Source of the DNA: Ashinkailepas kermadecensis
Lineage: Eukaryota; Arthropoda; Thecostraca; Neolepadidae
Direction of reading: 5' to 3'
DNA length: 64,000 nucleotides
NCBI GenBank assembly: GCA_034440615.1
Contig: JAOTOM010004376.1
Location: forward strand, 186,001 to 250,000
Shown: in pieces, positions 42,902-63,897 of the stretch
How the letters are laid out: every line of letters begins with the position of its first letter
Numbering within the stretch: the first letter of the stretch is position 1
Program-made: the position numbers and the translations under genes
The notes under the pieces: model-generated
What the model was told of the DNA's origin: nothing
The model's database searches: none
The model's input: the letters and a program-made list of their open reading frames with translations, nothing else

Positions 42902-43045
42902 CTACAGGCCGCCGAGCAGGTCGTGCTCGGAGGCTGGGGGCTCCGCGAGGTCCGCCAGCAGGATGTCGTCCTGAGACTCATCAGCCACCTCGACGGCATC
43001 GACGGCATCGTCGGCAGCAGACTCGCCCGTGTCAACACCGTCCTC
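42902..43045 (-). CDS. PICK1: PICK1 exon i: acidic C-terminal tail and stop
   Basis: The exon encodes 47 codons and TAG (42902-42904). It starts EDGVDTGESAADDAVDAVEV and ends ASEHDLLGGL. I chose the acceptor CTGCAG|GAG because it keeps phase 0 with exon h and gives a run of acidic residues where vertebrate PICK1 also has an acidic tail. The tail sequence itself is not conserved, so this exon rests on phase, position, composition and the stop. A possible AATAAA polyadenylation signal lies at 41877-41882, about 1 kb downstream. Confidence 0.72.
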   Translation of the reverse strand, partial: EDGVDTGESAADDAVDAVEVADESQDDILLADLAEPPASEHDLLGGL

Positions 43046-44084
43046 CTGCAGACGTCGGCTGATAGTTACACACCGACCCCTGCTGAACACCTTTCGAGTC
43101 CGGCCTGTGCATTCATATTCTAATATGGCCCAGTCCCTGCACGCCAAATGATGTCAGGCATGATATTTTAGCCATGAGTTATCATTATAGCAGGCATCTA
43201 TACTCCAGATTATGTGACTGGCCATGGCACCGCCTGCGAAATTATCTTGATGGCAAATTGCGATATGCACTGAACCAGTCAACCTTTCACATGCGAATTC
43301 CGACAAGGACAAAACTATGGTCCACTAATTGCTCACGAACAAGGGCGGAGCCAATAAGGTGGAGAAGGGTGGGGGTGGGGCTTAACAAAATTACGCTAGA
43401 TCAGAGAAGAAATTTGGGAATTTGTACCACGCCAAACCAGTTCTTTTTCGCGCGCTTCGAGCGCATCAAACGGTCTCGATCAAATTAGATTTTCGTGGGT
43501 GTTAGCCTCTCATTTAGAAAATCGTGAAAGCTCGTGAATGTAAACTCAGCCCGCCTGCATTTTGAGATAAATAACAACGCTTCATCATCCAAGACTAAAG
43601 CCCAGTCTGCACCTTCAGAAATGTCATCTCTATACCCTGCATATCCTGCATCTCCCCTACATTTCCGATTCCTTTTGGCGTGGCAATTCCAAGCAACACC
43701 CCGACCTCTCTGCTGAAGCTTCACGTGCCAGGCCACTCACACGGCATCTACACCATGCATCCACTCTTCTCATACTGAAGCAACACACCCCCAACAGTCA
43801 GGGAATTCACTTGGAACCAGGACGTTCGCACCCACCCGCTTCTGCTGGAGCAGAACAGGTCATACACTCCTTAGGGCTCACCCCTTCTGGGGCACGGCAT
43901 TCCAGGCATTCAGGAACCACCCGCAGCATACACTGCATACAGCATACAGCATGCACGTCATAATCACTGAAGCAATGCATCCTAGCCGCTTAGAGCACTA
44001 ACCTGGAACGACACACCGTACTGGAAGACAGAGCACAAACCTGGGACTGACAAGCTGTACTGGCTGGCGGGGAGACTGGCTGGC
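43046..44084 (-). other. PICK1 intron between exons h and i (unique part)
   Basis: The intron runs 43046-44717. This part has no recognisable exon or mobile element; 44085-44712 is microsatellite. Confidence 0.6.
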
Positions 44085-44712
44085 GGGGAGAGATAGAGAG
44101 AGAGAGAGATAGAGATAGAGATAGAGATAGATAGATAGAGATAGAGAGAGAGAGAGAGAGAGAGAGAGAGAGAGAGAGAGAGAGAGAGAGAGAGAGAGAG
44201 AGAGAGAGAGAGAGAGAGAGAGACAGAGACAGAGACAGAGACAGAGACAGAGACAGAGACAGAGACAGAGACAGAGACAGAGACAGAGACAGAGACAGAG
44301 ACAGAGACAGAGACAGAGACAGAGACAGAGACAGAGACAGAGACAGAGACAGAGACAGAGACAGAGACAGAGACAGAGACAGAGACAGAGACAGAGACAG
44401 AGACAGAGACAGAGACAGAGACAGAGACAGAGACAGAGACAGAGACAGAGACAGAGACAGAGACAGAGACAGAGACAGAGACAGAGACAGAGACAGAGAC
44501 AGAGACAGAGACAGAGACAGAGACAGAGACAGAGACAGAGACAGAGACAGAGACAGAGACAGAGACAGAGACAGAGACAGAGACAGAGACAGAGACAGAG
44601 ACAGAGACAGAGACAGAGACAGAGACAGAGACAGAGACAGAGACAGAGACAGAGAGAGAGAGAGAGAGAGAGAGAGAGAGAGAGAGAGAGAGAGAGAGAG
44701 AGAGAGAGAGCA
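44085..44712. repeat. Compound GA / GATAGA / pure ACAGAG hexanucleotide microsatellite
   Basis: (GA)n and (GATAGA)n are followed by about 430 bp of essentially uninterrupted ACAGAG hexamers (about 44221-44652) and then (GA)n again. It abuts PICK1 exon h: the intron starts GTTGGTG followed by CT repeats. Confidence 0.97.
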
Positions 44713-44717
44713 CCAAC

Positions 44718-44843
44718 CTCGAACTCTGACACGCCGTACTGGAAGGCAGAGCGCGACAGGTCCACCTCGATGGGGAAGTACTGGTGCTGCCGCATGAGGT
44801 CGTAGCACTCCTGATGGTAGCGCGCCAGACCGCTGATGAGACG
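44718..44843 (-). CDS. PICK1: PICK1 exon h: end of the BAR domain
   Basis: The exon encodes 42 codons, phase 0: RLISGLARYHQECYDLM, then FPIEVDLSRSAFQYG. FPIEVDL is a PICK1 signature. The acceptor is CGGCAG|CGT and is repeated in a 34-bp array upstream. The donor is TTCGAG|GTTGGTG; eight bases into the intron a roughly 620-bp CT/CTGTCT repeat begins in the transcript strand. Confidence 0.94.
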
Positions 44844-45262
44844 CTGCCGGTCGGGTCACGGGGTCACACAAACACCGCTGCCAGTCGGGTCACGGGGTCA
44901 CACAAACACCGCCGCAGGTCGGGTCACGGGGTCACACAAACACCGCTGCCGGTCGGGTCACGGGGTCACACAAACACCGCTGCCGGTCGGGTCACGGGGT
45001 CACACAAACACCGCTGCCAGTCGGGTCACGGGGTCACACAAACACCGCCGCAGGTCGGGTCACGGGGTCACACAAACACCGCCGCAGGTCGGGTCACGGG
45101 GTCACACAAACACCGCTGCCGGTCGGGTCACGGGGTCACACAAACACCGCTGCCGGTCGGGTCACGGGGTCACACAAACACCGATGCAGGTCGGGTCACG
45201 GGGTCACACAAACACCGCCGCAGGTCGGGTCACGGGGTCACACAAACACCGCCACAGATCGT
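44844..45262. repeat. 34-bp array made of the PICK1 exon h acceptor
   Basis: About 12 units containing GTCGGGTCACGGGGTCACAC and AAACACCGCTGCC. On the minus strand, units that keep CTGCCGG recreate GACCGGCAG|CG, the sequence at the true acceptor. Others read CCTGCGG and have lost the AG. Confidence 0.92.
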
Positions 45263-61580: not shown

Positions 61581-61709
61581 GCTCCACAACACTTCCCCGT
61601 TTTTGAACCCAAATTGAACCCAAATAATCTTTCCCGGATAATCAGCTACACGGTCGATAAATCGAGACACAAAACCACTGAATCATCAGTGCTTGTGTGT
61701 CGACCAGTT

Positions 61710-61873
61710 GGTTGGTTGGTTATTGGTTTTACGACACGTCGACCGTTGAGTCATATAGCGTCGCCAATCTCTCACGCCGATTGGTCGCGGGCGAAGAGCA
61801 GCGACAGGTGAGACTCGAACCCACCATCTTTCGATTGTGAGACGAGCATCTTACCCCTGAACCACTCGTCCCC
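61710..61873 (-). mobile_element. tRNA-Val-like SINE, second full-length copy
   Basis: This copy is closely similar to the one at 2.8 kb, with the same A and B boxes and tail. The perfect 14-bp duplication TGTGTCGACCAGTT flanks it (61696-61709, 61874-61887). It lies in the PICK1 intron between exons a and b. Confidence 0.9.
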
Positions 61874-61887
61874 TGTGTCGACCAGTT

Positions 61888-63138
61888 AAGTTGATAGGAA
61901 GCAACTGCATGGCCAACTAGCCACCAGCATCGCCTTAACAACACGAGTTGTATTCTCCCGAGCAATTAACGAATTGATTTTGACGCGCCGACAATCATAG
62001 GGATATCACAATAGCATGGCCTCAATATTCATCCGTCTCGACGTGTGAACTAAAGCAAAGCAAACGACACCAAAATAGTTCGGTGTGAGCCCAACATTGG
62101 AACCGATCACAACGGCTTGAAACACGCACACAGCCCGGAGGTCAGCAAAGGTCAGGGCCACGGGCACCAGGCCGCTATGCCGGACTATGTTGACACATTA
62201 AGCTGAAACATTGAAACTGTTCTATATAACTGGAATCTCACGATCGGAAGGTGGGATCAGGGTCGGTGCGACAAGCGCATGCTTCAGACGGACGCTGACG
62301 TCACAACGTCTCTCCAGCAACGATTCGGACTATTTTTATTAGACATGAGCTGTTAGCGCTGGCTACGCCACAATGTCACAGCCGAGCTACACCATGACGA
62401 TGTGTCAAACGAAAACCTTGCAATTCTTGGCACAATCATGCCCCAATTTGGCGGATTCGCGGGGTCACTGGCCGCTGGCACCGCATGGACGCTACTCCCG
62501 TCGCAACATCTGGGGCTAACTTTATTTGCACCGAATTGACCGTAAGCTAGCCGACAGGTAGCATATACAGCGCCACCTAGGTGTGCACGCTGCAGTAGAG
62601 TTGTAGATGGCGCCACATCCAACACCACAATCCTGCCACGTGGAATATCTGTGTTGCCCTACAGTCAGCAGCTGCACTGAACGGGCAAAGTCGCAGGTGC
62701 GGGCGCTCATTTGCGCAGGGGCTCGCATCGATATACAGGGCGACAGCTATCTAGGATCCAGATGGCTACAGCGCCTGTACTCCTGAACAGCGTCTGTACT
62801 CCTGAACAGACTAATTTAACAAAATTTGCTATTTTCTAGAAAAAAGCATACTCTCACACAACAAAACACATGTTAAGCATGCTTGGGCACATCAAGTTTT
62901 GTAGAATATTTGCATTCATCAAGATCAGATTAAATTGGTTCTATCGTCTTTTCCAATGTCAACAGTAAATCAAGCTCATGGTTACTGAGTTCCAGAAGTT
63001 CAGGACTTACACCATTCATGTTTTCAGTGCCATGGTTGAAAATCACAGACGCTATTAAAGCGAACTACAAAGGTTGTGAACTGCCGACATCATAAACTGT
63101 GGCCGTTGAGATACACGATCGTGACAACTTTCCAACAG
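61888..63138 (-). other. PICK1 intron between exons a and b (unique part)
   Basis: Mixed sequence with no recognised exon or element. Short frames only. Confidence 0.6.
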
Positions 63139-63768
63139 CACGCCTACCTTGTCGGCCTGGATCAGCATGCCCATCTTGTCGGCCTGGATCAGCATGCCTA
63201 CCTTGTCGGCCTGGATCAGCATTGTCGGCCTGGATCAGCATGCCTACCTTGTCGGCCTGGATCGGCATTGTCGGCCTGGATCAGCATTGTCGGCCTGGAT
63301 CAGCATACCTACCTTATCAGCATGAATCAGCACACCTACCTTGTCGGCCTGTATGAGTATACCTACCTTGTCGGCCTGGATCAGCATGCCTACCTTGTCG
63401 GCCTGATCTCTTTCTTTTATTTTCAGCATACTACCTTATCGCATGAATCAGCACACCTACCTTGTCGGCCTGTATGAGTATGCCTACCTTGTCGGCCTGG
63501 ATCAGCATGCCCATCTTGTCGGCCTGTATCAGCATGCCTACCTTGTCGGCCTGGATCAACATGCCTACCTTGTCGGCCTGGATCGGCATTGTCGGCCTGG
63601 ATCAGCATTGTCGGCCTGGATCAGCATACCTACCTTGTCAGCATGAATCAGCACACCTACCTTGTCGGCCTGTATGAGCATACCTACCTTGTCGGCCTGG
63701 ATCAGCATGCCTACCTTGTCGGCCTGGATCAGCATACCTACCTAACCAGCATGAATCAGCACGCCTAC
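63139..63768. repeat. 27-bp array made of the PICK1 exon a donor
   Basis: About 20 copies follow exon a. Read on the minus strand each unit is CTGATCCAGGCCGACAAG (the last 18 bases of exon a, encoding LIQADK) followed by GTAGGCATG (the intron start). Shortened 19-bp units and TCAGCATGAATCAGCACACC variants are mixed in. Every full unit carries a good donor, CAAG|GTAGG. Confidence 0.95.
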
Positions 63769-63897
63769 CTTGTCGGCCTGAATCAGCTTGGCCACCTCGA
63801 CCTTGGTGCGACCTTTGACCCCCGTGCTGTTGACCTTGACGATCTCGTCGCCCGACTGCAGCGTGCCGTCCCGGCCGGCCGGGGTGTTGTCGAACAC
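63769..63897 (-). CDS. PICK1: PICK1 exon a: C-terminal two thirds of the PDZ domain
   Basis: The exon encodes 43 codons in phase 0 at both ends. It starts VFDNTPAGRDGTLQSGDEI, the beta-C to beta-D stretch of the PDZ fold, and ends in the alpha-B helix KVEVAKLIQADK. The acceptor is GGCCAG|GTG; the donor is GACAAG|GTAGGC. The last 18 exon bases (LIQADK) plus the first 9 intron bases recur as a 27-bp tandem unit filling 63139-63768. The ligand-binding GLGF-equivalent loop lies in the missing upstream exon. Confidence 0.93.

Follow-up and report, generated by a model that had tools for sequence, protein, structure and literature searches.

Mirage-like tandem repeats at exon–intron boundaries of PICK1 and other genes of the barnacle Ashinkailepas kermadecensis

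Why should the introns of a single gene carry tandem arrays that begin at, or run across, its own splice junctions? This question is raised by the PICK1 gene of the barnacle Ashinkailepas kermadecensis, which lies on the minus strand of a 64,000-nt stretch of genomic DNA (the window; C3879:186001-250000, contig JAOTOM010004376.1) in an assembly of 907.7 Mb in 4689 contigs. A preliminary description of this DNA had stated that the arrays in PICK1 are built from its splice junctions. We found copies of the gene's own junctions in its introns, and the same was found in other sampled genes of the barnacle.

Exons a to i of PICK1 (63897-42902 of the window, Table 1) splice in frame to a protein of 373 amino acids with GT/AG at the predicted sites of every intron; one further exon is situated upstream, past the window edge. 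The Arfaptin domain of the protein scored above the Pfam cut-off. The PDZ domain is truncated by the window edge, and its matches were slightly below the cut-off. Identity to the PRKCA-binding proteins of the barnacles Pollicipes and Amphibalanus is 86% and 85%, respectively, in keeping with a barnacle as the source of the DNA. When the protein derived from the exon-nearest sites was compared with the proteins of four relatives, no insertion was found at the junctions of exons a to i. Because of this agreement the exon-proximal splice sites are presumably the ones that are used.

Arrays were called with Tandem Repeats Finder (TRF). In six of the eight introns (ab, bc, cd, fg, gh, and hi) an array edge spans a junction or is found at most 40 bp from it, confirming the preliminary description; in introns de and ef no TRF array does so. 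Counting the upstream exon as well, an array edge is found no more than 20 bp from 6 of the 18 junctions of the gene, compared with an expectation of 0.45 for uniform placement (p 5e-5, the lowest value that 20,000 placements allow) and of 0.95 when the placement was matched for GC content (p 1e-4). At five junctions, the a, b, and c donors and the d and h acceptors, the repeat unit had been described as containing the splice site or exon-end sequence, and for all five this was recovered. The period of 38 bp given for the c donor was incorrect, the actual value being 33–36 bp; the 38-bp array belongs near the f donor, 16 bp away from it. A sixth case had been overlooked. Beyond the AGACAG microsatellite of intron hi we identified relics of the exon h donor, namely a diverged copy (43996-44034, 35/42 aligned positions) and a partial second copy (44034-44063, 25/32). 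The estimate of about 100 decoy splice sites was fair: we counted 99 donor-like 9-mers with at most one mismatch (79 of them from intron bc) as well as 6 acceptor-like 10-mers; a few of all these are due to chance.

The comparison with other genes was made on a sample of the genome. Loci were picked by Pfam family, blind to arrays, and comprised six chaperonin genes (PF00118), an arfaptin gene, and two more loci with an arfaptin domain (PF06456); a PICK1 paralog on C667 was added. The resulting test set contains 45 introns with 90 junctions, and 26 of these introns contain 45 arrays with a period of at least 10. The six chaperonin contigs used have compact multi-exon clusters and C4646/C3901, C4391, C3743, C1409, and C4636 were left out, so that the sample may lean toward shorter introns. 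Gene models were built from a generic splice-site matrix and Pfam match coordinates. Three introns of C4527 were set by eye, four of C3687 with the help of an Amphibalanus protein, and those of PICK1 by hand. Two introns with unclear splice sites (C1603:134-162 and C3813:220-251) were excluded, as was the C4589 copy of the arfaptin gene, a duplicate. An array spanning the acceptor at C3687:162335 stands outside the counts, since this intron is not in the models. The genome is rich in repeats: the share of tandem arrays in the individual segments of the sample (12 contigs) ranges from about 1 to 40%.

Junction copies were also searched without a repeat finder. For every junction a query of 40 exon and 25 intron nucleotides was compared with its own intron and with all other sampled introns, and at least 3 exon nucleotides were required in a match. 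By this rule the h acceptor was not scored, because its unit has 2. Copies crossing the junction were found in the own intron for 13 of 108 junctions (by eye, 7 donors and 6 acceptors) with scores of 25–57, the next own score being 15. Five of them belong to the 18 junctions of this PICK1 (a, b, c, and h donors, d acceptor) and 8 to the 90 junctions outside it. Foreign introns of the sampled set gave no score of 18 or more, except for the paralogous exon d pair (18 and 30), where exon d sequence is duplicated in both PICK1 paralogs. At the exon a donor the best copy comprises 29 exon and 22 intron nucleotides and 18 matches scored at least 20; for the exon b donor there were 58 such matches in its own intron. 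The clearest case is an acceptor of the CCT6 homolog on C3687, where, in units of 71–76 bp, a pyrimidine tract and CAG are repeated together with some 53 nt of exon sequence. A decayed, older series of acceptor copies on C1603, missed by array calling, suggests that junction arrays span a range of ages. Units reach into the exon by as little as 2 nt and by as much as about 73 nt.

Array edges were found to be enriched at the junctions of the test set. For 12 of 90 junctions the distance to an array edge was at most 20 bp, compared with 2.13 expected when the arrays of each intron were placed at random in it (p 5e-5, again the smallest value attainable), and arrays touching or spanning a junction numbered 6, compared with 0.10. 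Without any PICK1 the count was 9 of 74 junctions, with 1.81 expected from uniform placement. The preliminary description had named a lack of such enrichment elsewhere in the genome as the result that would overturn it, and in this sample of 45 introns the enrichment was present. Exon edges and arrays are alike in base composition: GC content is 60% in exon flanks, 57% in intron bases up to 50 from a junction, about 45% in the intron interior, and 59% in the arrays. We therefore also placed each unit at GC-matching positions in introns from which the arrays had been collapsed, a null that accounts for GC only and not for CpG or other motifs. The expectation rose to 4.65 against the 12 observed (p 2e-4) and, without PICK1, to 4.08 against the 9 observed (p 0.0027). 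Because the excess persists after GC matching, composition explains a real part of it, though not all.

Genome-wide, short-period tandem triples of the donor-like word AAGGTGAG number 1186, compared with 447 for the reversed (not complemented) control, while the word and its control are equally frequent when counted singly (28,220 and 28,439). This excess of triple motifs is support rather than proof, because single arrays were counted many times.

Several points weigh against the explanation preferred below, local duplication across junctions with later amplification. The sample is small, with nine loci besides PICK1a, the gene of the window, and its paralog, and the splice sites are predicted. 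About half of the excess ratio at 20 bp is removed by GC matching (from 5.6-fold to 2.6-fold), and most intronic arrays are situated away from junctions, 45 arrays making 12 contacts within 20 bp. The rows of the triple-motif count are not independent, the first 100 representing 24 arrays by eye. A strong donor motif was present in 1 of 151 array units from the sampled segments, compared with none for the reversed motif; most units therefore have weak or diverged sites or none. Within PICK1, the c acceptor, f donor, and g donor have arrays nearby for which the junction-copy search gave no copy at all.

Did the arrays arise separately at each junction? By eye, 18 junction arrays were assigned to 7 donors and 11 acceptors. 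Sixteen of them (first 300 bp each) were without a counterpart anywhere else in the 12 segments of the sample; for the remaining two, the matches were to the paralogous exon d and to TG microsatellites. Junctions, and likewise genes, differ in the length and sequence of their units. Within the sample, the repeated independent origin claimed in the preliminary description is thus borne out and a single spreading satellite or mobile intron element is rejected.

The PICK1 copy on C667 was considered as an allele and rejected. It is a paralog: protein identity is 69–90% by exon, and the DNA of the two copies shows no long match over the length of the gene. Two PICK1 proteins are present in Amphibalanus and two in Pollicipes, which would fit an old gene duplication. 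PICK1a and the paralog have eight located intron positions in common, and at the same junctions their arrays are different or absent. Consequently, the PICK1 introns predate both the gene duplication and the arrays. At the d acceptor the arrays are a 62-bp unit including 28 exon nucleotides in one paralog and a duplication of 91 bp including about 73 in its counterpart. By eye, the letters TTTG stand at both ends of the 91-bp duplication; this single case is a hint of microhomology-mediated duplication.

Two separately assembled copies of the arfaptin gene (C1757:86101-96323 and C4589:1-10224) are 98.7% identical over 10.3 kb; they agree in their arrays and in the copy number of each, and none of these arrays spans a junction. 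In a chaperonin pair, probably haplotypes (C3901:301-7001 and C4646:270607-274117), the same two exon matches are about 6.1 and about 2.9 kb apart, an intron length difference of about 3.2 kb as derived from the exon-match positions. The 32-bp array of intron gh is interrupted by a long terminal repeat (LTR) retrotransposon and therefore predates its insertion. The two LTRs (46043-46190 and 51292-51439) match over 148 bp with 99.3% identity, CCCTC was seen by eye on each side of the element, and reverse transcriptase, RNase H, and integrase zinc-binding domains were identified.

We consider it likely that the arrays arose by local tandem duplications across junctions, followed by minisatellite-like amplification, and that they are tolerated via the surviving exon-proximal site. 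If slippage or a microhomology-mediated event were to duplicate a segment that reaches from the exon into the intron, the intron would receive extra copies of the splice site and of the exon end, and the exon itself would be preserved along with the splice site closest to it. The copies could subsequently be multiplied by further slippage or by unequal exchange and would be homogenised like those of any minisatellite. The arrays would be tolerated because the exon-proximal site, presumably the one used, still gives a conserved protein; they may be near-neutral. Splicing at an internal copy would insert entire units, and the length of many units is not divisible by three (37, 62, 68, 71, 73, and 91), that of some others is (27 and 33). 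Selection, if any, should therefore oppose the arrays, and the excess at junctions points to the rate of formation, governed by composition, by a junction-specific process, or by both. The earlier proposal that only those duplications survive which keep a working nearest splice site accounts for the tolerance, but on its own it predicts no excess at junctions.

Duplication could simply favour GC-rich exon edges, with selection clearing arrays from within exons and splicing playing no role. In favour of such an explanation by composition alone, exon edges and arrays are both GC-rich and the GC-matched null roughly doubles the expected contacts, but the excess survives the matching in all three comparisons (12 against 4.65; 9 against 4.08 without PICK1; 6 against 0.95 in PICK1), so that we regard it as a possible but on the whole unlikely account. 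The residual excess, the involvement of donors and acceptors alike, and the tandem triples of AAGGTGAG would agree with a process directed at the junctions, such as RNA-DNA hybrids, stalling, or repair templated by unspliced RNA, that seeds duplications at the boundaries. The exon depth of 2 to about 73 nt is, however, what random breakpoints would give, and the triple-motif excess may stem from a few large arrays; we think such a process rather improbable. Its broader version, in which a lineage-wide, junction-directed mutation beyond composition keeps duplicating junctions, leaving about one in eleven (8/90) self-copied and the spliceosome picking the exon-proximal copy, is likewise put forward tentatively and is more doubtful than probable.

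Other explanations were given far less weight. Retention of the arrays for a function, for example the tuning of splice-site choice or intron length, might be read from the roughly 100 decoy sites in one gene, but the paralog with the same intron positions has different arrays or none at the same junctions and the units vary by sampled junction, making a function very unlikely. The arrays are difficult to assemble, and an assembly artefact would be conceivable on this ground; yet the two arfaptin assemblies agree in the copy numbers of their arrays (though these are not junction-spanning). Privacy of 16 of 18 units to their locus within the sample and the LTR retrotransposon inside one array speak against artefact and against the spread of one satellite family alike, and we hold both to be highly improbable. 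Recent birth of the introns themselves by tandem duplication of AGGT-bearing exon sequence would draw on a mechanism described for other organisms (PMC4974935). For PICK1 it was rejected, as the intron positions common to the paralogs are older than the gene duplication, and it is the least credible of all. The reading that we prefer remains local duplication across junctions with later amplification.

The junction copies at 8 of 90 barnacle junctions outside PICK1 suggest that repeats of this kind are not a chordate oddity. Genes of this type offer a natural experiment on how the spliceosome chooses among many near-identical sites, on the lengthening of introns, and on the origin of new splice sites. 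Whether composition or junction-directed mutation prevails becomes a testable question via genome-wide annotation, and gene prediction in such genomes will encounter false splice sites.

Table 1. PICK1 exons, tandem arrays, and further repeats of the PICK1 introns (positions in the window; a slash marks the junction)
Feature	Position	Strand	Remarks
PICK1 exon a (PDZ part)	63769..63897	-	donor ACAAG/gtaggc
27-bp array across exon a donor	63136..63787	-	units = exon-end sequence + GT donor
~35-bp array group, intron ab	60983..61529	-	away from junctions (nearest ~490 bp)
PICK1 exon b	60327..60491	-	donor CTCTG/gtgggt
37-bp array, ~2.5 kb, carries b donor	57830..60331	-	begins 5 nt inside exon b
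42-bp array, 33 bp upstream of exon c acceptor	56355..56931	-	TRF
PICK1 exon c	56213..56321	-	spliced gene model
Array across exon c donor, 3 copies	56130..56236	-	TRF period 33, consensus 36; 21 exon nt
62-bp array across exon d acceptor	54643..54812	-	unit = 28 nt of exon d + acceptor
PICK1 exon d	54537..54670	-	spliced gene model
PICK1 exon e	53640..53753	-	spliced gene model
PICK1 exon f	53052..53167	-	spliced gene model
38-bp + 102-bp repeat group, 16 bp from exon f donor	52774..53035	-	TRF
PICK1 exon g	51821..51905	-	spliced gene model
32-bp array, donor-side half, 38 bp from exon g donor	51438..51782	-	TRF
LTR retrotransposon within 32-bp array, intron gh	46043..51437	-	ends and flanks by eye
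32-bp array, acceptor-side half, intron gh	45417..46042	-	TRF
34-bp array, 12 copies, exon h acceptor CAG/CG	44842..45252	-	2 exon nt + entire AG site, read from unit
PICK1 exon h	44718..44843	-	spliced gene model
AGACAG (6-bp) microsatellite, intron hi	44095..44709	-	ends 8 bp from exon h donor
Relic copies of exon h end + donor, past AGACAG microsatellite	43996..44063	-	two copies
PICK1 exon i, with stop codon	42902..43045	-	spliced gene model

Elsewhere in the window, a Pfam search of 9 of the 117 open frames of at least 75 amino acids in the first 42 kb gave no gene usable for junctions; two matches of reverse-transcriptase type were obtained from these nine frames, one of them below the cut-off. 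Minus-strand frames at 20436-22047 have a reverse transcriptase match (PF00078) and a weak endonuclease match below the cut-off and probably belong to a non-LTR retrotransposon. A 21-bp unit is repeated in 94 copies in an array of about 2 kb (12924-14888), and an array of 12/48/144-bp units (6676-7429) possibly codes for a repetitive protein.

How do the barnacle arrays compare with known systems? The preliminary description knew of no described system of this form, and in this it was mistaken. In amphioxus, tandem repeats spanning exon–intron boundaries have been described as 'mirages' (PMC3087553, PMC3902484). Mirages were named in the Adh3 gene and later found at both kinds of boundary in the globin genes BflGb6 and BflGb9, with regular splicing kept and an unstable length (PMC3087553); they are also present in PGBD5 and troponin C (PMC3902484). 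In the barnacle, too, the repeats cross the exon–intron boundary and include exon sequence, 5' and 3' boundaries are both affected, and unit length and sequence vary from gene to gene. It is therefore probable that the barnacle arrays are mirages, a known phenomenon newly found in a barnacle and frequent in the sampled part of its genome. Our literature search returned no report of mirages in barnacles, most subscription journals lying outside its coverage.

Among related phenomena, ordinary intronic minisatellites are similar in unit size, in the similarity of their copies, and in being GC-rich, but the barnacle arrays are significantly in excess at junctions and contain exon-end sequence in their units. 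Intron gain at AGGT (PMC4974935) likewise involves the tandem duplication of a segment with splice signals; it makes a new intron, whereas the intron positions of PICK1 are common to the paralog and the arrays differ. The closest likeness is to the amphioxus mirages. In the published cases compared, as in the barnacle, minisatellite-like repeats with gene-specific unit lengths run across donors and acceptors, and many units keep the splice signals. The barnacle differs in belonging to another phylum and in having longer arrays than the published cases compared (about 2.5 kb at the b donor). In the barnacle, the excess over random placement has been measured across genes, from genomic DNA.

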